From Antedon mediterranea (lineage: Eukaryota; Echinodermata; Crinoidea; Comatulida; Antedonidae), in the NCBI RefSeq assembly GCF_964355755.1, contig NC_092671.1:9931001-9995000 (forward strand): DNA of 64,000 bases, given 5' to 3'. The position numbers and the translations under genes were made by a program. The notes beneath the pieces were generated by a model. That model did no database searches and was not told the DNA's origin. It was given only the letters and a program-made list of their open reading frames with translations. Positions 5,401 through 60,054 of this stretch are shown here, piece by piece. The stretch's first letter is position 1; every line of letters begins with the position of its first letter.

Positions 5401-8400
5401 TGAGCCATAATTATTTGTAATTGCGCGATGGTTAATTATCATACAAGCCCAGCATTAATTTTGATCGATTTTGCATGACAAATTTTGATTTAATTTTCGA
5501 TATAAGTTCATTATAAAATGATTTTCGATATTGTTTTGTATAAATACAAAAACGCGTTTCACGAGTTTGAGACGCTTAGGAGGCCAAGGGGTAATGGATG
5601 TTCTCCCCAAGTCCAAAAGATATTGGGAAAGATTTTACGTTTCAAATCATCTACCACGTGGATTCGCCTCTAAACAAAAAACTACGGTGGTACGCTGGTC
5701 AGGTCACCCCTGAAATTACACTACATCAGCCAGTGAGCTTTTCTATTCCATAATAAAGGGTATTGCTAAACACCGCAAACCTCCCAAAAAATCAGAGAAA
5801 ACCCGATCCAACCAACATAAAATATGATAATAAATAGCTGTCTCTTAGTTCGTCATAAAAAAGTTACTCTTTTAAGTTACTCTTTATGTGTGTAACTTTC
5901 CGTCTACACAATCAAATACAGTTTAAAACCAATAGCAACCTTCCCCAACAATTATGACCGGTGGTAGATAATAATATAAAGTTAAAACTGTGTTTTTGCA
6001 TGACTAGAAGACACCTGACAAACAAATTAATAACTCAAAGAATATTTGTTATTTGTCAGGTTTTAGGGTCGCCAATATGTCCAAGTGATCGGTGGCTTTT
6101 GAATGGTGAATGCTGCGAGGACTGTGCAGCAGGGTTTGGCGTTGTTTCACCGTGTGGACAAGAAAATAACACAATTTGCGAAGCATGTATACCCGGCACA
6201 ACATTCTCGCCATCATCAAGTGGAGGCGACGTTTGCAATATGTGCAGCAAATGCCCAACTAATGAACTAGTCAAACAACCGTGTAATATCACACACGATA
6301 CAATCTGTGAATGTAAAAAAGATTTCTATAGAAATAAAGACGATTTCTCGTGCAGGCAGTGTGATCTCTGTTTGAAGGGGTATGGTGCGCAAACACCATG
6401 TTCTGCAGACCACAATTCTGTATGCGTTAAATGTGGTAATTCAACATTTTCTGATGAGTATAGCAATGTCAAAGGATGTCAAGACTGCAGCATATGCCCA
6501 GTAGGTTCGAAAAAGATCAGCAACTGTACCTGGCTACAAGATACAGTTTGTCAAGGTAAGTTGATTTTTAAAAATATTTTTTTTCATTTTCTTATAATTT
6601 GAACAACATTCAATTCATTCTTTTTATAAATAAAAAATTATCTCTTTTCAATTAGTCATACCATAGAGATATTATATTGAACTATAATATATCTATGGTC
6701 ATACAGGTTTGATAAAGCCTACAGGTATTCCTGGGATATTTGATATCTACCATTGAATTTTCAGATTTTCTGTTTTCTTATAAATCCTTGATGAATTTTT
6801 CAAGCCTTGGGACAGGTTACATTCACACATGTCACGCTTCATTGAACATAAGATTGCTGTTCTATTCTATTTCCCCAAACGTGCTGTCTTGCGAATGTAG
6901 CTTAAATCCGGTCGCTATGGTTTGGCCATTTTCAGCAGTCAGAGTGTAAAAAAGTACAGTGCTACAGTAGTACTTTTAATGGAAGTTGAATTGATACAAA
7001 CAACCATAACTTCAACACTTTACAGTACACAATCATTAACAGACATCAAGTTATCAATACAAATTCATGTATAAAATGTCCACATTTGTGGGTGTGATCA
7101 TCAACATAATAATTAATGTCGGTATTTTGTATCAAATACCGCCAGGATGTCAGCTGTTATGCTCATAAAATATTGTGATATATTTATGTTGAAAAGAAAA
7201 TACAGAAATTCTTTCAACCAGAACACATAAGTGCATGGTTACCTACATTCAGATTAGACTACATTGGCGTACTGTAAAGTGTACTGTACTACGTACCAAA
7301 CTTGTTTTTTCAAAATACAGTCGTACTTTCAAACTAATATACTGTATTTTAACTTCTTTGTAACGGGTCCTCTTTTAGTAATACAATTCTTCAATACCTG
7401 CATCTCCACAGCAGTAGGCCTGTAAACAAAAATACAATAAAATTTATTAATTTGTTCTTTCAAAATACAGTATAGTAGTAGACCAGTACAGTCAACAATA
7501 AAAACTAATATTTTAACTTCTTTATATTGGAGTCCTCTTTTAGTAATCACAATTCTTCAATACCTGCATCTCTACAGCAGTAGGCCTTTAAACAAAAACT
7601 ACAATAACATTTTAAAAATGTGTTCTTTCAAAATACAGTTATTAGACCTACAATACAGTACAGTCAACACTACAAACTAATATTTAATCTTCTTTGTATA
7701 ACAGGTCCTCTTTTAGTAACACAATTCTTCAACACCTACATCTCTACAGCAGGCCTGTAATGCATACAGTAGAAAAAAAGTAAAATAAAATTAGAAAATT
7801 ACTCACATCTTAACATTATTCTTAACAAATATTTTCATGTTTAATTCTTCTAATAACTTAAAATATCATTTATAATTCTTATTTATTAATTTGTGTATAC
7901 ACAACATCTGAAATTATTTTCATAAATATCAATATTTGATAGCAAGTCGTAAACTCAAGTGTTAAATAGATTATAAACTAAATTATTCAAACAAGGCTAC
8001 GAGTGTATTCGTAGTAAAAACCAGTTTTTAGTAGGCAACTGTCGTCATTGTGTGGAGCATTAGGTCAAGAGGTCAACATTTGGTAAAGCTGGAGTTTTCG
8101 AGCTTTCTTTACTGCTACATAATTCAATTATTTTTAAATTGTGACAGTAATGTAACTAGACATAAAAACTTGGAACATTATTAAGTACAGCAGTTTCTAG
8201 ATTTTAGTTGCATAAAAAAACCCAAAATCATAGCCATTCTCCTCTACTTTGCTATTGCACTAAATCTGCCATGGAATATTTTTATTACAATTTGTTTCAA
8301 TAAAATTAAAATAACTGAAACATATTATAAGTTTATTGTTTTAAACAGAGTTTAAATCATATTTAATATGCTTTAACAAAAAAAACAACTTAAAGTGACT

Positions 8401-23400: not shown

Positions 23401-23932
23401 GAAAAGTTAACCTACAACTGTCCTTAAATTGTACTTGTATTTTTAATAATGATTATTAATAATTATTATTTTATTTAATTCCATATAACCAATTGAATTA
23501 TTGTTAATTAAATTAGAACAGCAACACTGATGTGGAATTTAGAAAACACAAAATATATCAAGCTTTAATTAAAAGTACTAATTGGTAAATGATGTTTAAA
23601 TTTTTTCTTTTTTTTCCCCAGTGCCCGTAGGGATGTTATATGTTGATCTGCCTAGCGAAAAGAAAAAAGAAGTAGAGAAATTGCTAGGAACGACGCGTCT
23701 TGATCGTCGTGATTGGCGTGGACTTGCTTTTGAGCTTGGTTTTACTGAAGAAGATACAGTCAGTTTGATTAAAAACTCTAATAAACATTTACCTGCTGAA
23801 AAAATGCTTATGATTTGGAGTCGACGTGAGGATGCAACTTTAGGACTATTGGTGGCAGCATTACATCGAATTGGACGAACCGATGTATTAAATGTAATTC
23901 CAGTTTATGTTAGCTTATCACAAATCACATAA
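2434..23932 (+). CDS. NGFR: p75 neurotrophin receptor-like TNF receptor superfamily member 16
   Basis: Five exons join in phase: 2434-2496, 6060-6555, 20047-20242, 21691-21827 and 23622-23932. Together they give 1203 nt, a 400-aa protein (human p75NTR is 427 aa). It is a type I membrane receptor for neurotrophin-like ligands. Layout: signal peptide about 1-24, four cysteine-rich repeats (Cys28-Cys185, exactly six Cys each), a short stalk, a transmembrane helix about 214-235, a juxtamembrane linker 239-297 and a death domain about 303-390. Four NxS/T sites lie in the ectodomain. The death domain keeps the p75 pattern (LPSEKKKEVEKLL, then W-x-x-LA-x-ELG), and the transmembrane Cys219 used for receptor disulfide coupling is present. 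Exon 1 is the least certain part. The second intron is about 13.5 kb. Orthology to NGFR rather than another TNFR rests on the repeat pattern, membrane segment and death domain together. Confidence 0.92.
3328..3550 (+). repeat. Minisatellite, AAGTCGCCCC units (left arm)
   Basis: About 14 tandem units of 15-16 nt. The core AAGTCGCCCC is nearly invariant and the unit ends vary (ATCGCA, ATACA, AAAACA, AACGCA). Open frames through the array on both strands are by-products of the repeat. Confidence 0.92.
4306..4508 (-). repeat. Minisatellite, same unit in inverted orientation (right arm)
   Basis: About 13 tandem units of the reverse complement of the left array, with cores reading GGGGCGACTTTG. 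The distal units match the left array unit by unit. Confidence 0.92.
6060..6555 (+). CDS. NGFR: NGFR-like exon 2: four cysteine-rich TNFR repeats
   Basis: One 496-nt exon bounded by AG (6058-6059) and GTAAGT (6556). It encodes all four ligand-binding repeats. Counting from the predicted start, the cysteines fall as 28/39/40/43/53/61, 64/80/83/86/96/104, 106/119/122/125/135/143 and 146/161/164/167/177/185. This is the p75NTR spacing, including the CC pair in repeat 1. Acidic residues are scattered through repeats 2-4, where vertebrate p75 binds basic neurotrophin loops. The open frame runs a little beyond both splice sites; those extensions are intronic. Confidence 0.93.
7310..7760. repeat. 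Three tandem copies of a 165-173-bp repeat
   Basis: The block GTCCTCTTTTAGTAA, followed by ATTCTTCAA-ACCT and an AGCAG-AGGCCT word, recurs starting near 7367, 7532 and 7705. Flanking words (TTCAAAATACAGT, ACTAATAT) recur in the same order. The copies have diverged by substitutions and small indels. Confidence 0.8.
8503..8625. repeat. 53-bp tandem duplication with partial third copy
   Basis: The unit starting AAAGGTGTAGAGTACACAAT begins at 8503 and again at 8556, differing at a single C/T in the visible copies. A truncated third start (AAAGGTGTCCCC) lies at 8609. The near identity implies a recent duplication. Confidence 0.9.
9895..10160 (-). pseudogene. Possible minus-strand exon pair or exon relic
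   Basis: Two stretches look spliced on the minus strand: 10160-10115 (after TTTTTTCAG, before GTATCT) and 10020-9895 (after TTTTCTAAACAG). Joined, they can read AFTTIQPSSQHQFFE then VPYYINRPVDFG and on to a stop. A second frame is also open across both, so the reading is ambiguous. A further candidate upstream (10610-10511) has an in-frame stop in its best frame. I recognise no family. It may be a decayed gene fragment inside the intron or chance. Confidence 0.25.
11567..11698 (+). other. Possible extra NGFR-like stalk exon (speculative)
   Basis: A GC-richer patch in a very AT-rich intron. It follows an acceptor-like ATTTTATCTAG at 11566, has length 132 nt, and starts and ends in phase 1, exactly as needed to sit between exons 2 and 3. 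It would add a Ser/Arg-rich stalk (SLHLPRSPVLSQTTVMSQRR). The donor (GTAGTT) is poor. It may be an alternative exon or a chance open frame. Confidence 0.2.
20047..20242 (+). CDS. NGFR: NGFR-like exon 3: stalk and transmembrane segment
   Basis: Starts after TTTTTTTACAG (AG at 20045-20046) in phase 1 and ends at GTAAAG (20243). It encodes a short S/T/P-containing stalk, the membrane helix NIVPLYCAILGCVVLGLVAY and a basic stop-transfer stretch (YKKW, later KIKVQQQK). Cys219 (20142-20144) is in the position of the human p75NTR transmembrane cysteine. Its phases match exon 2 and exon 4 exactly, so a direct 6555-to-20047 splice keeps the frame. Confidence 0.88.
20243..23621 (+). other. NGFR-like introns 3 and 4
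   Basis: Apart from exon 4 (21691-21827), this is AT-rich intronic sequence. A run of 16 or so G residues lies near 23285-23300. I see no other exon, RNA gene or element with defined ends. Confidence 0.6.
21691..21827 (+). CDS. NGFR: NGFR-like exon 4: juxtamembrane linker
   Basis: A 137-nt exon between TTTTTGCAG and GTAAGT that keeps the frame to the death-domain exon. It encodes about 46 residues rich in Ser, Leu and Lys (LSLHSSKLSAPYSSSLQSQK), equivalent to the flexible linker between membrane and death domain in p75NTR. The open frame continues past the donor to 22114, but that part is AT-rich intron. Confidence 0.8.
23622..23932 (+). CDS. NGFR: NGFR-like exon 5: death domain and stop
   Basis: Starts after TTTTTTTCCCCAG and ends with TAA at 23930-23932. 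The encoded death domain begins LYVDLPSEKKKEVEKLL and keeps the helix pattern WRGLAFELGF, EEDTVSLIKN, AEKMLMIWSRRE, ATLGLLVAALHRIGR. It resembles the human p75NTR death domain across its length. The C-terminus (SLSQIT) does not end in the SPV-type PDZ ligand of vertebrate p75. AT-rich 3' UTR follows. Confidence 0.93.
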
Positions 23933-46100: not shown

Positions 46101-49100
46101 AATTCTCTATTTTGGTAGTTGTTAAGTATCTGTTGGAATTATAGTATGTTTAGCAACTGAATGTTGGATATAAGTAAAGGTCTATCTACATTATCAAACT
46201 TTATGTGACAAAAAGATGTGATGTGTCCATACATGGACATGATTATGTCATATCACTACCATATTTGGGCATATCACCACCATATTTGGGCACATCACAC
46301 TTGTTTTGTCAAACGTGTTTGATAGTGTAGACAGAGCTTTAGTTTGATGAATTTAAAGTTAATCATAGTTTTTCTAAAAACCTATTTACATAATAAAGGA
46401 TAAATTAGTTATTCCTTACAGTCTTTTTGTTTGAAAAAAACAAACCCCCTAAATTTACTGTAGAATAATTAGGTACTTATTTTTTATATATAAAACATTG
46501 GGTGATGATGTTTTATAATGCATACAGTATTTTATGATCTGAATACAGATCCTTTGTTTAGAGAGTGAAGACTTAGATTTCAAAAATAATTTGCCAGCAT
46601 AATTGAATAAACTATTCCATTATGAAGTTCACTATGAAACAACCATGCAGTTATTCCTTTAAATTTCATTTTGAAAACTCACTGCATTGTGGAATAAACA
46701 AACTGGAAAGAACTGGAGTGGAGTTGTGGCTTGGTGGTTATGATGCTTGTCTACCACTCCAAGGGTCCTGGGTTTAAGTCCCGTCACATGTCAGGATTTT
46801 TTCTAAGGACCAAATTACCCCACTCCCAAAGACTTGTAATAAGACTTTGTTTATGTAGAGCATCTTGTGTATATGTTTGTCTTGTGAACCTCTGAGGGTC
46901 CCTAATGATCAGCAACAGCTGGATGGATCACCCTCATTAAATATGGTAAAAAAAATAAATAAATAAATAAAACCATAACAAAATTACTAAAGGAAACTGA
47001 AAATATGTTGTTATCCAGAGGTTAAACAACATTTGGATATACTGTACATTCTACAGATTAAAACGCCTTTGAGTGGATCCTATGAACTTTAAACTTAAGA
47101 ACCGGTTTGTACCGGATTAGTTAGCAATAGACTGAACAACCACAAACACTGCAAAATAGAGTCAAAAAGGGAATTTTATTTTTTTTTTTAAAACCTTCTA
47201 TATCCATCTTAGTTTATCAATTTATACATCAATATTTTTTCTGAACATATGTTCAAGTGATACCTGGTTGCTATTCAGTTTTTAGGAACAGAACCTATCA
47301 GACCTATCATTTAATTACATATACTCACGTACATGTAATTCTAAGCAAGCCCAGCCAATGAAAGCACAACAAACCAAACACACTGTTTATGAAATACAAT
47401 ACTGAATTATAATTGATTATGAGTAGTTACGAGTATATCACTAAGAAAATAAGCTGAAATTCTATAAAAAAAATAAATATTTGTAGACTACTGTGTATCA
47501 CAATTTCTGCATGGTTTTTGCATTGTGCTTGTTTATCTAATTAAAACTTGTATATTTAGGCCTATATTGAGTTTGTACTGTATAAAATAACTCTGTACTC
47601 AGTATACAAATATCGCTTACTGTAAATGATATTTCAACACTTATATTTATGAAATTTCTCCTACCACGAAGATTAGGGGACAGTTTCTGTATCCAGATCC
47701 CAAATCAAATGCTCTATGATAATTTTGAATTATATTCTGTATTGTTTGTATGTCTTGTTTTACAAAATGTTGGCATTAAGCTCTGTCCACACTATCAATC
47801 TAGTGTGATGTGCCCTAATATGGTAGTGATATGCTTAAATATGGTAGTAATATGACATCATCATGTCCATATATGGGCACATCACATATTTTGGTCACAT
47901 AAAGTTTAATAGTGTAGACAGAGCTTAATAGCAGTTTATCTGTTTAGACCTATACCTATTGCTTGATCAAGATTGCACATTAATTTTGCCAAATAATGTT
48001 GTTCCACGGTTTTCAGTTGAGAATTTGTATCGGTTTTTAAAAATTAATTACAGTTGTTTGGTGATTTAGTCTTCTACTTCTAAATAGATATGATGTTACA
48101 ATACAAACATGTTTATTGTTATAAACATGTTGAAATATGTATTTGCAACACACATTGGTTTTAGGATTGCATCACTGTATTAAATGTGTTAGTCCTAAGA
48201 ACTAAATTCACCACACAAAAATGGATAGTAATATTGCACCTTTACCAATATAAAATTACAAATTTGGAGAAATTTAATGCCAGTCTGCATGAATAATAAA
48301 CAGGACCTACATCATAAATCTCACTCTATTCTACTATTCACAAAAACCATAGTTTAGCATAAAGACCAAATAAACTATGTACAGATTATACTTTGCCAAT
48401 AGCCAAGACTCAAATAGGTGCCAAGATGACAGAATTCAGCTGTATGTTACCATTATTATATTAGGATATATCCTATGTTGATGCACAGTACTATCTATCT
48501 GTTATGTCTGCCATATAACAGTATAGAAGTTGCGCTTAAATTTATTTCAAAGACTTAAACCCAGATTTTTGTCAACATACCCTTAATTTTATATTAGCCT
48601 ACTTTAAAAAGCTTTGGTAAAACAGTATATGCAGATATATTGTCAACTGCTGGCTGCCTCTAAAATTGTTTATACCACTATATTTAATTCAGGGTTTTTT
48701 CATTCACTCTATTGGCCTAAACAGTTTAGTTTAACTAATGTACAATATGTAGGTGGATTATTTATATAATCATTTGCATCATAAACCTAAACTACTGCAC
48801 TATTAAAGAACTCAACATTTGAAAAAAACTGGGAGAAGCGGACGCTGTCTTTTTTTCACAAACTCTTTATGTCTAGGTTAATCTCATACATTGTAAAATT
48901 CTCACATTAAAAACATTTTTTACAGGAAACACAAAATTCATATCACCCAGAATGTTGTTGGAGCAATAAAATCAGACCAATAAATAAAACACTGAACCTA
49001 ACCTTTAAATCTAGCACTCTTCTAAATAATCTCTTTTCCTCAGGCCTAACACATTTGAAAACCATGACCTTACAAAGTTCCCTTCCAGAATATAGAAAAT

Positions 49101-50034: not shown

Positions 50035-51655
50035 TTTGGTATTTCGTTGATATTTCTGATCTCGTTTGAAGATGTACCCCTACTGCTACTGTACTGACAA
50101 TGCGTCGTAGTAGGCTGTGATTCCAGACCTAGGCGTAAGCCTGGAAACACAACCTGCTCATCGGATGTGTGTAATTGTTGAACAGTACGCTTATCAACAG
50201 CAGCCTACGGGGAGTAGCAATCTAGGCTAGGCCCTAGCCTGACGTCGCAGCCCGCCGTCAACCAAAAGCCTGACAAATGAACTTGAAATTTAAAAGGACA
50301 CAGCCTAACAAAAACAAAAATTTAAACGTGAAGCTACTACTATTAAATGATAATAATACTTGCTATATAGATCTTGAGATACCTAGGCAAAGCAAAATTG
50401 AGCTGAATTTTATAGTAAGATCATTAATTTCATATTATCTTGTAAATTACCTTTCTCGTCGAATAGCTCAAAACAGCCACGCTAACTTGAACTTCTTTGC
50501 GCTGCTGCTGTTCGGCGGCTCATTCATCATCACAAACCCCATCGGTAAAAAAGTATGACCTCCTCAGCCTCGCTTTCAAAACCCCGGGAGCTTGGTTTGT
50601 GTACCACGTGGTGCAACAATAGAGGGTGCTATTGATGTTTTTCTTCATATCACATGAGTTTTTTCTGAGTTTATGATTGACAGCCAGTGACAAAAAAACA
50701 ACCTTACTTTTAAATTATCTACGGTAATTGATTTCTTTTGGTTTAATTAAACATTTTGTTTCATTATCGTCCTACCGCGTCATAACATTTCTACATTACA
50801 TCATCCACGTCACCTCATTACCGTCATCCTTTTTATTGTCTGCTGTCAAACAAAATAAATTGACAATTCACATGATTTATATAAAATATTTGGTGTTATT
50901 AATGCCAAACGTGGTGTGTACAGTTGTACAAAATTCTCGTTTAAAAACATAATACAGTAGCTTAATTAAATCATAGAGCAAAGCAAAGTTCGCTCTATGA
51001 CTACTAAAACATGCATATATTATTTTCACAATTATGCTTCTTCTTTTAAATTATCAAAATTTACATATTGTATAAATATCGTCTCTCTATTTACAAATGC
51101 ACAAAATATTATTTCTAAAAAACATTTTTAAAATATAAAAACTACTTTTGTTAGTTGAATGTGTTATATACATATAAAATTCAACAAAAGGTAGGTATAT
51201 ATGTTACCTACGTCATTATGTGTCACATGATCTGAATGAACTCGTGGAATGCATGTCATAAATACAGACAACTGGATATGTTGCTAGGAAATTATTTAAT
51301 TTAAATCATTGTAAAGCTCTGTCTACACTATCAAACTTTATGTGACAAAAAATGTGGTATGCCCAAGGACATAGCGACATAATATTACTACCATATTTGG
51401 ACACATCTCACTTTTTTTGTCAAACTATTTTAATAGTGTAGACAGAGCTTTAGAAACAGTTTTTGTGTGCCACAGCACAGCATGATTGAAAACGTAGACT
51501 TCGCCACAAGTCTAGTTGTTTTTATATAGCGCCATCAGCAGGCATTATGACACACTACATATACTAAAATGGCTCATTTTACAAAAAATTAACCGCTGTC
51601 TCTAATCTATAGACTATTATCTAAGTTTCAGTATTATTAAATTTAGACCTATTAT
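50035..51655. other. Upstream region of SETD2 and 3' flank of PIDD1-like gene
   Basis: Sequence at 50100-50580 is GC-richer and likely holds the SETD2 promoter and leader. A minus-strand donor (GAGAAAG|GTAATT, lower exon edge 50451) suggests a non-coding first exon. A 93-codon plus-strand frame at 50277-50558 is unrecognised and lies antisense to this leader. A MITE sits at 51312-51452 and a 9-bp-stem hairpin at 50975-51004. Confidence 0.4.
51312..51452. mobile_element. MITE family copy C
   Basis: Terminal inverted repeats TAAAGCTCTGTCTACACTAT and ATAGTGTAGACAGAGCTTTA are perfect over about 20 bp. The element is flanked by TA if TA is taken as the target duplication. The interior shares TTTATGTGACAAAAAATGTG and CTACCATATTTGGACACATC with the other copies. 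Confidence 0.9.
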
Positions 51656-51841
51656 CAGTGGTGTAACGCAGAGGCATCAGAATTCTAATTTAAACACCCT
51701 AAGTAGCCCTCCAACGCTGGAGGCCATGGGTGCGTTTTTAGCCCTTTTTTTTAAATGCCTGTTTTTCCTCTGGGCACTGCTCAGGGACCCCTATAAATCC
51801 TAGGGCATTTGGGTTTAGCGCTCAAACCTGTTACACCACTG
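51656..51841. mobile_element. Non-autonomous hAT-type MITE with 8-bp target duplication
   Basis: Ends CAGTGGTGTAAC and GTTACACCACTG are perfect 12-bp inverted repeats of hAT type. CCTATTAT directly flanks both sides (51648-51655 and 51842-51849), an exact 8-bp target-site duplication. At 186 bp it has no transposase. It lies about 50 bp beyond the PIDD1-like stop, probably in that gene's 3' UTR. Confidence 0.93.
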
Positions 51842-51888
51842 CCTATTATCCAAATACAATATATATAATTTATATATATATATTTCTT

Positions 51889-52715
51889 TTATTCTGTAGC
51901 ACATATTTTCATACAATCATTGGCTAATGATTTCTGCTTTATATCCATGAGTGCACTATACAGTCCTCCCTTTGTACATGTGTCCGTGTACTCAGTTTTC
52001 CATTTCAGCATCATCTGTATTGCATGGTCTTCTTTTGAAAAGTACTCTTTCTCAATGTTTTTTATGTCGTTCTCAATTTGGTCGTCACCGCGTACCAAAC
52101 GGGCAATCTTCTTCCAGTGCGTCTGGGTTAAAGGAGCGATACGATAAATCTGTCGATGAGTTAACTCTTCTTGACTTTGTCGCAAAATTTGCTCGTTAAA
52201 CAATGCTGGCATAGGAGTAGTTGACTATAACACACAAAAATATATATATAAATAAATAATATCAGAAAACACAATAAAACAAGGGTACTCCAAATAGAAC
52301 ATACCACCAAATGATTTGGATACATTCCCCAATCCATTCCCTAAAATACTTACTGTTGATGAAGAAGATGGTACATTTGCATAAAATGCTGACGTGTTTG
52401 GAGCGTTTCCTACAGACACCATGCTAGACATTCGGGCACTTGGTTGGCTACCAACAACCGTCGTATTTCCGGAAATCTGTGACAGGGTCGGTAACGGCGG
52501 TGAAGACCGAGAAAAAGATGGAATGGAGCCATAAAATTGTGGTGAGCGTGGCGGTGTTCTTGGGGGAGTGTCACCTGGTGGACTGATCTGAAGGTTTTCA
52601 AGAAGTTCATCGTTGCTCGATTCTTGGTCGTAACGCATACGTTTTTTTGCGGTAGCTGCACATGTTGGGTGAGCACGCTTTCTGGAACGTCTGGTTACAC
52701 CTCTACTAGTACTTG
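51889..52715 (-). CDS. PIDD1: PIDD1-like exons: Ser/Pro linker and C-terminal death domain
   Basis: Exon 52715-52354 is disordered: a basic NLS-like pair, then SPPGDTPPRTPPRSPQ (several S/T-P sites, possible proline-directed phosphorylation) and Ser/Asn-rich sequence. Exon 52224-51889 has APLTQTHWKKIARLVRGDDQ, AIQMMLKWKTEY and a helix GGLYSALMDIKQKSLANDC, a second death-domain-like fold, ending ICATE-stop. The linker-to-domain join is phase 0. A longer open frame past the linker donor is intronic. Confidence 0.8.
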
Positions 52716-55700
52716 CTGTAGATATGAAAAACAGATTTTGTTGAGACGGTGTTTACACAGTTTATAAATACTTGTACTGTTCGAAATGTTATCAGTGTAA
52801 ACATATATCATTCAACAAAGGCTAATGAATATATTGTTTGTTTCCATTATAACTATTATGCTCTAAAGGTCAAAATAGAGAAAAATGTGAAAGCACTAAA
52901 TTAAGATTTGATGCCATTTACAGTGGATACTTACGTTGATCTTCATCTAACGTACTGGTAGACCTAGCTGGTGAGCTTGCAGCTGAACTAGATTGAGATC
53001 GATAAAAGAATGATGGCCACCAGCTGGATGAAGCTGGTCGATTTTCAGACTCAAGTGAATAGTGTCCTAATCGCAGCTTCCTTGCAACCTCACTCATTGT
53101 TTGAGAAAACAGCTCGTGCATGCCACCTCGTTGACGATATGATGCCACTAATTTCTTAAATGGATCTACTGATTGACTAAACTTGAAGATCTCCTGGTCT
53201 GTGAAACCCAATTCATGGCTCAATACCTTCCAGTTATCTTCGAATATTATGCCATGCATTTCTTTGGGAAAAAAGTATTGTAAAACAAATACGCATTATT
53301 TTTTTACTTAAGTTATAGCCACATTGACTAAAGGAGAATGTTAAAATCTTTTGCATAGCCCCAATGAAGCACAACCCTGTGTTGATCCGAGTCTCTGTGG
53401 ATCAACATTGAACTGGAACTAGAGGTTAGTAATTAAATTGTGTCTGCCTGTTAGTTTTCTTTGAAATGATTTAGCTCTAACTTACCAGCTAATTCAACTA
53501 GAGGCTGCATTGACCAGGGGTCTTGGCTCGACTGGTCTGGCTCGTCTGAACTCTGAAACACCAATTGAGTCAATAGATTATTTATAAAACCGAGCTTTAT
53601 GGAAATAATATAGTTTAATGTCAGTGTCAAACAATTCCACTGAAAAACATCAAAACCTCAGCTAACTCAAGATTATAAGAGGAGGTACAATACTGTAAAA
53701 AGCTGGATCTATTATACAAATAATGAGTGTTTAGGAGTTGAATTGTAGTAGAATATCTTCATGAGTTAAGTAGACGTGCCTAACCACAAGGATGGATCGG
53801 AATAATGCATACAGTACAGTACATGATACAGTATGTATTCAACCAATCAAATGGCCAGGATGCACTTAAGTATACATAATATAAACTAACCTTTATCAAA
53901 TTAAACTGAAACAGTGATATTTCCGATCCATCTTCTTTCTTTTGAGTGACAAACACTTTGCCAAACACGCCTCTCGTAAGTTTTTCACCTTTAAACTTGC
54001 AGGCAAACTGTTTTTCAAACTCATTTCCATGAAAACTCTTTTCAATTTGAATGAGGGAGGCATCTTCTCCAGTCCCAGTGTCTGCCTCAAAATAATCTGA
54101 TTTTGCCAGTCTCACTTGTATGTCTCCACCTGTATTTAAACAAGGATAAAATGTATAATGATTGCTATATGTTATTTCATTCAGCAAAAGATTACATACA
54201 AATAAACAACACAATAAATGGAGTGGTGAATGAAAGAGTACAGTAGAGATACCACTACTGTATCAATAGCAATGTTCAACTCCAGCTTCTAGAAACATAA
54301 CTCAAAAAAGCAGATGACATAAACAATATTTTGCACACAAATCAATTATTAAAATGATATACAATAAGTCAAGAATTAATAGAAATAAATATAATAAACA
54401 ATTATAAGTAATTAATTAAAAAACAGGTATTTAGTTGTTTGTTTATGTCTCCCCTTTTTTAATGATTAAAACTGAACAATTACATTTTACTCTTTAAAAT
54501 TTGTAACAGGGAGGTTTCTACTTATTATAAGCTGTGTTTCAGAGATTCCCCTTTTCCATTCTTTTGTTTTTTAATGACTATTTATGTATGTTTATGTTTT
54601 TGTGAATGGAAATAAAGAAATAAAGAAACAAACAAAGTTAATGTGTTAACTATTAGTCATGAGTTTACTAATATTTTACAACAACTGTAAAAGTGTTGCA
54701 GTCATACTCACATCAGTGTACTTACCCTGTTTTATTGTCACTGGTTTAATACTTCCTCCAATTCGTCGAGCATTTCCAAAATCTTGAAGCGTATTTGCCG
54801 CATTGTGGCAAACTACAAGAAGCGAAAATTTATCTTCCGAGTCTAGGTCCTCAACCGGCATAAATGCTTGGCATTTAAAATTAACATCGCGGTTCGACCA
54901 AGTCCACGACAGACCCAGTCTACTTTGGTTTAGCTGTGAGGCCAGGCCTTTAAAGAATCCAGCAAAGCCAGTAAAATGTGGCGTTGAGAAGATTACGTTA
55001 TATATGCCATCACTAAATGTAATTTCAAAGTCAACATCTAATTTCCGCCATTTCGACGGTTTCGTTTCTAATGTCTCCGTTGACCAGATTGTCAATTCTG
55101 CTAGTGATCCTAAAGTCTGACAGATCTCTGGGTAATTTGGCAATGGTAACCTAATGGTGACAGGATCTGAAGCGACAGAGTGGAATTTACAACCATGTGG
55201 TCCTAAAAAGACAACTGGTGTTGCTAAAGCATCGTCCTGATTCAAACCAATTCTGAGATTTTGAGGTAGATTAGAAAAGTACATGTTAGCCGAAGCAGTA
55301 ATGTCTTTCTTAAGACATCCTTTTGGAAAGTTTACATAAAATGATGGTATCTCTGGAATTTGAAGACAGCCTCCATCCTCTACTGTAACGTAGTGTGAAA
55401 CATGGATAGCAGAGTCTTTAACCAAAACAGTAAATAACGAAAAATGCTCTGCTTTAATCTCCACATAATCATTAAACACTTTGTAGTTTGTAACTGGCAT
55501 CTGTAACCAGAACGGATCCTCATCTTCGCCGGTATCGCTATAAAAACAAACAACATTATCTTCACAAATGCTGCTTACAAAGAGTGGAAGTTTAATTCTG
55601 GCTGGTTTATCCGGATAAAAACAAGTCCGATGGGGAGTTAGCGACACAACATGACTGGCCAGTGAGGTATGCTCATCAACTTCAGGCTGGTAACGCACAT

Positions 55701-56703
55701 CGGATAAAATGTTCATGGAGAATTCCGACTGCATATGATGATTCCGATTGTGCTCCGGAATAATCACTGCAGCATTGCGATATACAATAAATTTACAGCG
55801 ATCTTCTAAGCGTCCTTCATAGTACACGTCATAATCTAAAAAAGGTTCTTTACAAAGAGGTCGTGAGCAAACGTCGCATAAATCAAAATCATGTTCCTCT
55901 GAACAACAATTCAATTCCTCACCACACTCACTACCGTGGTCACCACTACAACTGTTGCCGCAATCATTTTCAAGTTTTAAAAAAAGCTCTGAGCTCTGAT
56001 TCTCTTGACTTGATCCTGAGCAAGAAACGTAGTCACTTGTTATGATAGTGTTAGCATCCCATCCTACAGCATGATGCCCTTTGCTCTGGGCAAATGCAGG
56101 AACTACCTTCCGAAGACTTACATTTTTTAACTCATCGCATAAATTACTCTCAATTTCATAATCAATCTTTAGGCATATAGGCCTACTTTTAAAACTAATA
56201 TTAAAATATTTCCACAGTGCAGGCAACCCATTAATGTACACATCCCGTGGAATGTTTTTAATTGGGTTTCTTGTAACATGGAATGATTTTAATTTTGGAA
56301 GTAGTAAGCTCTCTTTTGTAAGAGATTTCAATAAATTGCCTGAGAGATTAACAATTTCAAGTTTCTTTAGTTCAGTAAAACTTTTTGGAAGCTGACTAAT
56401 ATGATTTTGTGCTAGGTTGAGTGTGGTTAAGTTTTGGAAATGTTGGATCCCATCCGATAGCAAAACAAGGCGATTGTTTTGGGCAAACAACTGTTGAAGG
56501 TGAACCAATGAATACAAGCAGTCTGGCAACGTTTGGAAAATGTTGTGGCTGATGTCCAGCGTAGTGATGTGTACTGGACACAGCAGGTGCCATGTTGGCA
56601 GAGTGTTCAGATGTAGGTTACTCAACTGTAACCTTTTATCTTTGCTCTTTAAATTTTGTTTTGTCTTCAACTGTATCACCTGCAACTGCCACAAATCTGG
56701 CAT
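51889..56703 (-). CDS. PIDD1: PIDD1-like LRR-ZU5-ZU5-UPA-death domain protein
   Basis: Six coding exons join in phase: 56703-54726, 54129-53891, 53552-53486, 53261-52935, 52715-52354 and 52224-51889 (stop TAA). They total 3309 nt, 1102 aa (human PIDD1 910). PIDD1 is a p53-induced scaffold that nucleates caspase-2 or NEMO/RIP1 complexes after self-cleavage. Order: LRRs about 25-180; a Cys-rich acidic insertion 228-284; ZU5-1 about 300-430 ending in HFS (420-422); ZU5-2 about 445-585 ending in HFT (576-578); UPA-like region about 595-740; death domain 1; Ser/Pro linker with a basic NLS-like RRSRKRAH/AKKRMR pair; death domain 2. The HFS motifs in human PIDD1 are the autoproteolysis sites. The second death domain, the HFT variant and the Cys insertion are departures from human. 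A non-coding exon probably lies upstream, since an acceptor is seen at 56716. Confidence 0.85.
52935..53261 (-). CDS. PIDD1: PIDD1-like exon: first death domain
   Basis: Encodes DNWKVLSHELGFTDQEIFKF, KKLVASYRQRGG and SQTMSEVARKLRLGHYSLE. The W-x-x-L-x-x-ELG start, the basic loop and the final amphipathic helix match the death-domain fold. A Ser/Trp-rich tail follows. This domain is in the place of the single human PIDD death domain. Confidence 0.78.
53486..54129 (-). CDS. PIDD1: PIDD1-like exons: end of UPA region and linker
   Basis: Exon 54129-53891 begins GDIQVRLAKSDYF and ends EISLFQFNLIK. It is beta-rich, with charged loops like the UPA module after ZU5 in PIDD/UNC5/ankyrins. Exon 53552-53486 adds an acidic linker SSDEPDQSSQDPWSMQPLVE. 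Both are supported by standard AG/GT signals and matching phases. Confidence 0.78.
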
Positions 56704-56715
56704 GTCATTTGGAGC
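54726..56715 (-). CDS. PIDD1: PIDD1-like exon: LRRs, Cys-rich insert, two ZU5 modules
   Basis: A 1990-nt exon after a TTTTTTTTTAG acceptor; the first ATG is at 56703 (MPDLWQLQVI). About seven LRRs follow the L-x-x-L-x-L-x-x-N-x-I/L pattern (HITTLDISHN, NLTTLNLAQN, KLEIVNLSGN). ZU5-1 holds ASHVVSLTPH and ARIKLPLF; ZU5-2 holds VNFPKG, FLGPHGCKF and VTIRLPLP. The donor is GTAAGT in phase 1. Three bases upstream of the ATG are codons without a stop back to the acceptor, so a start in an earlier exon cannot be excluded. Confidence 0.88.
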
Positions 56716-58221: not shown

Positions 58222-58311
58222 AGAATGAGGGCTCACCATCGAAATTAGTAAATTTTGGACTAACTGCGGTTAGTCCAAAATTTACTAATTTCGATGGTGA
58301 GCCCTCATTCT
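58222..58311. repeat. Perfect 43-bp inverted repeat with 4-nt loop
   Basis: Arm 58222-58264 and arm 58269-58311 are exact reverse complements, separated by TGCG. The outermost bases on each side no longer pair. It is not terminated by any transposon end I recognise. It lies about 0.8 kb upstream of the RNF41 coding exon, in its presumed promoter or leader. Confidence 0.97.
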
Positions 58312-59089
58312 CTCAGGAATTACGCCCGTTAGACTCAGTTTCCAGTCGCTCAGCTTTAGTAAACACGTACAACAGTACTATTGCACTGTCGATGTTTTTG
58401 GTGGTTGTTGGTAGTCGTCGTTTTTCGAAGTTTACCTGGATGAATTAGTTTATCAAATTGAATCATTTTGGAGTGCGTGTATGTATTTTTAACACTACAT
58501 ATAATTAGTTTAATTATTTATGTTATATAAGACGTTGCATTTAGGTATATTATTTATATATATCACTGATATTTAGAATAGATTTGTTGGTTCAGATGAC
58601 GTGTTTGGTGAATGTGTCACTGACACTACACGGCTAGGCCTAGATAGATAGGAGTGTCTAGACGGGTGTGTAGCCTGTAGGGTTGGACTGGAATTTATGA
58701 GTGGAAGAATGTGTGTAGTGTACTGTACTCGGTGTTAGAGCCTACACGTAATATCTTAGCAGTAAAATCGTATTTGCTATCATTTTCCGTAAATGAATGG
58801 TAACGGTAATAAAAAGCAAAACTTGCTCAGCAGGATATCCCGGGCCTTGTTTTGTTTGTTCATTTATTTTCTTAATATTATTCATTCCATCTTCTTTATA
58901 ATCTGGTCTGGTGATTATTTTAAATTTTTTTTCAATGCTACTAAGGCTAAATTATAGTATGGATGTATGATTTCATTTAATTGATTTATTGCTTATTTAA
59001 TGATCCCCACAGCGTAAATTAACAGACCTAGCTGTTAAAACATTCTTTTTAATTGACTGATTTGTGTATTTTTTAATGTATATTTTCAG

Positions 59090-60054
59090 ACATAATGGGA
59101 TTTGAAGTGCATAGATTTGAAGGAGATGTCGATGAAGAATTAATTTGTCCTATATGTAGTGGGGTTTTAGAAGAGCCGGTTCAAGCACCACAGTGTGAAC
59201 ATGCTTTTTGTAGTGCATGTATCCAAGAATGGCTGTCACGGCAACATACATGCCCTGTAGATCGCAACCCTATAACTCCTCAGCAGCTTAAGCCTGTGCC
59301 TCGAATCCTACGCAACCTTTTGGCACGGTTGCGTATTGCATGCGATAATGTTTTATTCGGCTGCAAAAAAATTGTCAAGCTCGATACGCTAACACAACAT
59401 TTAGATGAATGTGAACATAATCCTAAAAGACCAGTGCAGTGTGAATCTGGTTGTGGTATGGTGATCCCCAAAGATGAGCTTGTTGATCACAACTGTGTGA
59501 AAGAACTTCGCCATTTAATCAAAGAACAGCAAGACAAACTATCTGGTTATCATATTGAACTATCCGATATGCGACGTTCACAAAACGATAACAAAAGAGA
59601 AATTCAGATGCTGAAGGAGTACATCCGTGCCATCAGAGTGGCAAATCCTAGCAATAGTCCATCGATACGTGCCATAGAGGATGAAATTGAACAAAATGAA
59701 GTGTTACGCTGGGTTAACTCACTACCCCTTGCAAGAGTGACACGTTGGGGTGGGATGATCTCAACACCAGATGCGGTATTGCAAGCCGTCATCAAGCGCT
59801 CTTTGATCGAAAGTGGTTGCCCCGCACATATTGTAACGGAACTGATGGAAAATGCGCATGAAAGAAAATGGCCACCAGGACTAAGCACTTTAGAGACTCG
59901 GCAGATGAATCGACATACTTATGAACAATACGTGACCAGACGAATACCAGGCAAACAAGCAGTCGTTGTCATGTCATGTGATAATGCACATATGGGAGAA
60001 GATCTGACCCTTGACCCAGGTCTTGTTATGATTTTTGCACACGGTATAGAGTAA
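59090..60054 (+). CDS. RNF41: RNF41/Nrdp1 RING E3 ubiquitin ligase
   Basis: A single-exon CDS, ATG at 59095, TAA at 60052-60054, 319 aa (human 317). The exon begins after TATATTTTCAG at 59089, so a 5' UTR intron exists upstream. RING residues Cys18, Cys21, Cys34, His36, Cys39, Cys42, Cys53 and Asp56 give the Nrdp1-type C3HC3D set. A TRAF-type zinc finger follows (CDNVLFGCKK, CEHNPKRPVQCESGCG), then a coiled coil about 135-180 and the C-terminal USP8-binding domain (VNSLPLARVTRWGGMISTPD, GLVMIFAHGIE). Nrdp1 ubiquitinates ErbB3 and other substrates and is stabilised by USP8. It resembles human RNF41 end to end. The lack of introns in the coding region is unlike the vertebrate gene. Confidence 0.98.

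Follow-up and report, generated by a model that had tools for sequence, protein, structure and literature searches.

The PIDD-like gene described here probably encodes a PIDD1-type self-cleaving scaffold in which leucine-rich repeats (LRRs), two ZU5 domains, a presumed UPA region and a death domain (DD1) are followed, behind a flexible Ser/Pro-rich linker, by a second and dissimilar C-terminal death domain (DD2). At the sequence level, the two-death-domain protein looks real. As read from its sequence it is a variant of the cell-death scaffold PIDD1: the second death domain is new, and the evidence points to no new mechanism.

Gene model and surroundings

The gene lies in a window of 64,000 nucleotides from Antedon (C2:9931001-9995000; the genome comprises 354 Mb in 18 contigs), to which all positions refer unless a contig is given. 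Its six minus-strand exons join in phase to yield 1102 aa counted from the first in-frame ATG, with GT-AG at each of the five introns. The initial annotation had proposed this joined 1102-aa protein with the phase kept throughout, and both its exon borders and its reading frame agree with ours. The exons and the nearest poly(A) signal are as follows:

Exon 1: 54726-56715, minus strand; first in-frame ATG at 56703; LRRs, ZU5-1, ZU5-2 and the start of the region in the UPA position
Exon 2: 53891-54129, minus strand; end of the expected UPA region, UPA being without a Pfam match
Exon 3: 53486-53552, minus strand; helix 1 of DD1
Exon 4: 52935-53261, minus strand; remainder of DD1 and start of the Ser/Pro-rich linker
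Exon 5: 52354-52715, minus strand; Ser/Pro-rich linker with a bipartite basic (NLS-like) motif
Exon 6: 51889-52224, minus strand; end of the linker, DD2 and stop codon
AATAAA: 51888-51893, minus strand; overlaps the stop codon, and another begins at 50837

A search for AATAAA and ATTAAA from 53619 to 51893 returned none that would terminate a shorter transcript. Together with the phase kept across exons 4, 5 and 6, this supports a single transcript, short of proof. Alternatively, an ordinary PIDD1-like gene could stop after DD1, with exon 6 forming a small separate death-domain gene (ATG at 52212, 107 aa). Such a gene is conceivable because exon 6 holds an ATG of its own (residue 996), and death-domain genes are plentiful in this genome. 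However, the acceptor of exon 6 is a good one, phase is kept from exon 4 through exon 5 into exon 6, and a poly(A) signal is absent between exons 3 and 6, so that we regard a split into two genes as improbable.

The 3' end of the gene (51449-53216) recurs at a single other place, on contig C7 (C7:7536049-7548775), at ~96-98% identity. We considered this copy as a close paralogue and rejected it as a dead fragment: it begins inside exon 4, carries a frame-shifting gap, shows 13 amino-acid-changing versus 3 silent differences, and is interrupted by an insertion of 11 kb, flanked by a 5-bp repeat. Being dead, it is uninformative on the function of DD2 or selection on it.

Just downstream of the gene, a MITE-like element bounded by terminal inverted repeats of 27 nt occupies 51309-51455, and related pieces are found at 46182, 47841 and 61932. 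On the opposite side, a perfect inverted repeat with 43-nt arms and 4 nt between them (58222-58311), present as a single copy in the genome, lies in the interval from which the PIDD-like gene and an RNF41-like gene diverge. The latter is a single-exon RNF41/NRDP1-like gene (59077-60054, plus strand) with a RING and a USP8-interacting domain (281.8 bits). Elsewhere in the window, four TNFR/NGFR cysteine-rich repeats (5958-6602, plus strand) are followed 17 kb on by a clear death domain (23600-23932, plus strand; 44.8 bits), and the two probably belong to one TNFR/p75NTR-like receptor gene.

Domain order and the two death domains

The joined protein reads, in order, LRRs, ZU5-1, ZU5-2, the stretch where UPA is expected, DD1, the Ser/Pro-rich linker and DD2. 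Pfam matched the N-terminal LRRs (PF13855, 39.9 bits) and the two ZU5 stretches (40.5 bits together; alone, 26.1 bits for ZU5-1 and 19.9 for ZU5-2, just under the cut-off of 21). About 150 residues without a Pfam match separate ZU5-2 from DD1, i.e., occupy the expected place of UPA, and the ZU5-UPA part is followed by death domains, DD1 below the Pfam cut-off and DD2 over it. These LRR, ZU5 and Death matches support the PIDD1-like identity first given to the gene, and an assignment to the PIDD type is supported by domain order rather than by direct alignment to human PIDD1. LRRs, two ZU5 domains and then a death domain are shared with human PIDD1, as is an HF/S site after ZU5-1 (human S446). 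The human protein differs in having one death domain, at residues 774-893 (PMC7791037), as previously noted, whereas the Antedon protein has two, with a linker of ~180 residues between them. A further difference is that the second cleavage site is HF/T in Antedon, and because it reads HFT instead of HF/S we use the name "PIDD1-like" and not "PIDD1".

The ankyrin ZU5-ZU5-UPA-DD tandem (PDB 4D8O) has the same domain order as far as DD1, and ZU5-2 weakly resembles ankyrin-2 (E 0.0037), but ankyrins carry ankyrin repeats instead of LRRs and only one death domain. The LRR region also matches LRRD1 (leucine-rich repeats and death domain containing 1; PDB 9IJJ, 9FQR); this match is limited to the LRRs, leaving the ZU5 part outside. 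As expected, no relatives of the protein were found in viral and prokaryote collections.

Pfam Death (PF00531; curated cut-off 22.6 bits) was found twice in the joined protein, at 30.8 bits in all. Scored alone, DD2 (exon 6) reached 23.9 bits (E 4.6e-5) and passed the cut-off, while DD1 (exons 3+4) stayed under it at 17.6 bits (E 0.0044). An independent profile, for which 49 other death domains from this genome were used, gave 22.7 bits for DD2 and 15.2 for DD1; among 10,000 shuffles that kept the composition (5,000 for each domain), the top score was 12.7. The two death domains predicted by the initial annotation are thus borne out, by two Pfam matches and by scores above all shuffles, but of the two only DD2 passes the curated cut-off in its own right. 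DD1 keeps the W-x-x-L-x-x-E-L-G-F core of other death domains. When its sequence was extended from exon 4 only to exons 3+4, its match to the p75NTR death domain improved a hundredfold (E 0.23 to 0.0018), which places helix 1 on exon 3. DD1 therefore crosses the exon 3/4 junction and is tied to the ZU5 part. A death domain had previously been placed at 53261-52935; it is indeed there, but that range misses helix 1 on exon 3 (53552-53486). A PDB sequence search returned chance hits only for DD2 and, for exon 4 of DD1, p75NTR alone and weakly. Both domains were also missing from the 149 matches of a genome-wide six-frame Death search in which the best candidates were scored.

Single-sequence AlphaFold2 models of both domains were weak (mean pLDDT 50 for DD2, 60 for DD1), with helices in places fitting a six-helix bundle. 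Even so, the weak DD2 model retrieved mostly death domains: FADD, which came first in Foldseek, Fas, TNFR1, ankyrin and the PIDD chain of 2OF5. On realignment, ankyrin G and the PIDD chain 2OF5_H had Z values of 5.9 and 5.5, respectively, with rmsd 3.1 over 82 and 3.4 over 84. Because shared packing of helices can be enough to produce such values, they offer support short of proof. The DD1 model, which omitted helix 1, found TNFR1 and p75NTR first, with E >0.5, and on realignment gave a mixed list including acyl carrier proteins. Structure prediction, suggested earlier as a check on both domains, therefore gave low-confidence support for DD2, but the fold of DD1 rests on its sequence profile and its place after the ZU5 part.

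These differences could mean that DD1 is decayed or non-functional and that DD2 has assumed its role, the protein then acting as a one-domain PIDD. The lower scores of DD1 fit such a scenario, as does the position of the PIDD chain 2OF5_H as second-best match of the DD2 model, tied with ankyrin G. We nevertheless consider it unlikely, given that DD1 retains the conserved core, lies in the expected place after the UPA region and has a profile score above all shuffles.

Relationship and origin of the pair

No similarity that could be aligned was evident between DD1 and DD2 (score 23, out of register), and their exon structures differ, DD1 being split by an intron and DD2 intact. In a mostly unresolved tree of 51 death domains, the two grouped in 4% of bootstrap trees, their end branches were the longest and third-longest, and neither could be assigned as the counterpart of the human domain. 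Such dissimilarity and lack of grouping make a recent duplication unlikely; the pair possibly arose by an old duplication or by capture of a second domain.

Tandem duplication of a single PIDD death domain is another candidate origin. Such duplication is seen in a ZU5 gene on another contig (L024; C10:14957500-14965500) that carries two near-identical death domains and whose neighbour (L025) has one. This gene resembles the PIDD-like gene in that two death domains, set apart by a low-complexity spacer, come after ZU5, but no LRR was seen in the stretch read, and its death domains are near-identical recent copies. It thus demonstrates the kind of duplication that could have given rise to DD1 and DD2. 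For the PIDD-like gene, we view this origin as quite unlikely in light of the missing similarity, the different exon structures and the rarity of DD1-DD2 grouping among bootstraps, which would still allow for a very old duplication.

Overall, the genome has 118 death-domain clusters; in 25 of them, among which is the L024 locus, two or three such domains lie on the same strand within 2.5 kb. The clusters derive from the 149 Pfam Death matches (best candidates), are defined by proximity and not by gene models, and include some recent copies of each other. On this count, tandem death domains are a common form in the Antedon genome, so that the PIDD-like architecture is less surprising than it first appears, and finding a pair says less about a special mechanism than the initial annotation had assumed.

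In this group of animals, PIDD might also normally carry two death domains, the second being absent or lost in vertebrates, in which case the species would not be special. We consider this a genuine possibility, if a somewhat less probable one than its opposite. The strong divergence of DD1 and DD2, with their long end branches, is what an old arrangement might show, and PIDD and CRADD homologues have been reported in molluscs, so the gene itself is old. On the other hand, no PIDD with two death domains is described in the literature found, whose coverage was partial. Should the pair turn out to be the rule among these animals, the present gene would be of chiefly evolutionary interest.

Self-cleavage and candidate partners

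Each ZU5 domain of PIDD is followed by an HF/S site at which the protein undergoes self-cleavage (PMC3210808). In human PIDD, cuts at S446 and S588 produce PIDD-C and PIDD-CC, the latter being the RAIDD-binding fragment (PMC7308375, PMC7791037). The corresponding positions in the Antedon protein are:

HFS, residues 420-422, after ZU5-1: 55438-55446, minus strand; predicted to be self-cleaved, corresponding to human S446
HFT, residues 576-578, after ZU5-2: 54970-54978, minus strand; position of the human S588 site, with Thr for Ser

Self-cleavage, as anticipated by the initial annotation, is hence plausible at the first site, where HF/S is kept, but the HF/T at the second makes release of the shortest fragment uncertain. 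Thr is listed among the nucleophiles of HF/S self-cleavage chemistry (PMC3210808), so that HF/T is no bar to cleavage and a second cut is possible, if uncertain. This site would reveal the extent to which the second cleavage depends on serine.

The linker proved Ser/Pro-rich with an NLS-like basic pair, as had been noted: it contains 22% Ser and 12% Pro, a bipartite basic motif, RRSRKRAHPTCAATAKKR, at residues 879-896, and six Ser/Thr-Pro sites between residues 858 and 942. It would be flexible and is possibly nuclear-targeted.

Two genes carry a CARD and a death domain on neighbouring exons, whose joining is inferred:

L022: C9:2115000-2121000; CARD-death-domain gene, a good CRADD/RAIDD candidate
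L023: C9:24348500-24353500; CARD-death-domain gene

Both halves of L022 are closest to RAIDD/CRADD in PDB (E 5.7e-8 for the CARD, 6.3e-6 for the death domain). The death domain of L023 has CRADD as one of its top PDB matches (E 1.0e-5), behind ankyrin-2, and the CARD of L023 is nearer CARD9. A third death domain, at C7:15266610, clusters with that of L022 in the tree of 51 death domains. The genome thus encodes a CRADD-like adaptor, probably more than once, which makes the recruitment of two adaptors, as suggested in the initial annotation, conceivable.

For the PIDD1-type scaffold that we favor, we propose a self-cut at F421/S422, and perhaps also at F577/T578, which would leave both death domains on the resulting C-terminal fragment. 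One of them would dock a CRADD-like adaptor, which would in turn recruit a CARD caspase, and the other would either raise the valency of the assembly or dock a second death-domain partner. Either domain may be the binder of the CRADD-like adaptor, since DD1 has the human position and DD2 the better scores. A more elaborate scheme, in which DD1 and DD2 engage different partners, i.e., each another CARD-death-domain adaptor, or a CRADD-like adaptor plus a second signalling arm, would create a two-arm caspase-activating assembly; we regard it as very doubtful. To our knowledge, no such two-arm PIDD assembly is known in vertebrates. Mammalian PIDD1 fragments, which share the same single death domain, are reported to have competing outputs, caspase-2 via RAIDD and NF-kB via RIP1 and NEMO. 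In a naturally occurring PIDD whose two death domains differ, the choice between outputs could be dissected by deleting one domain and seeing which output goes.

Caspase-like sequences were also encountered in a repeated element (C9:14160500-14169500 and C4:16565500-16574500; L067 and L068, 99% alike over 5 kb), in which a CARD-caspase-like ORF adjoins an ORF that by eye resembles a family B DNA polymerase. The element is present in some five copies, on C3, C4 and C9, and is perhaps an endogenous DNA-virus-like element carrying a caspase.
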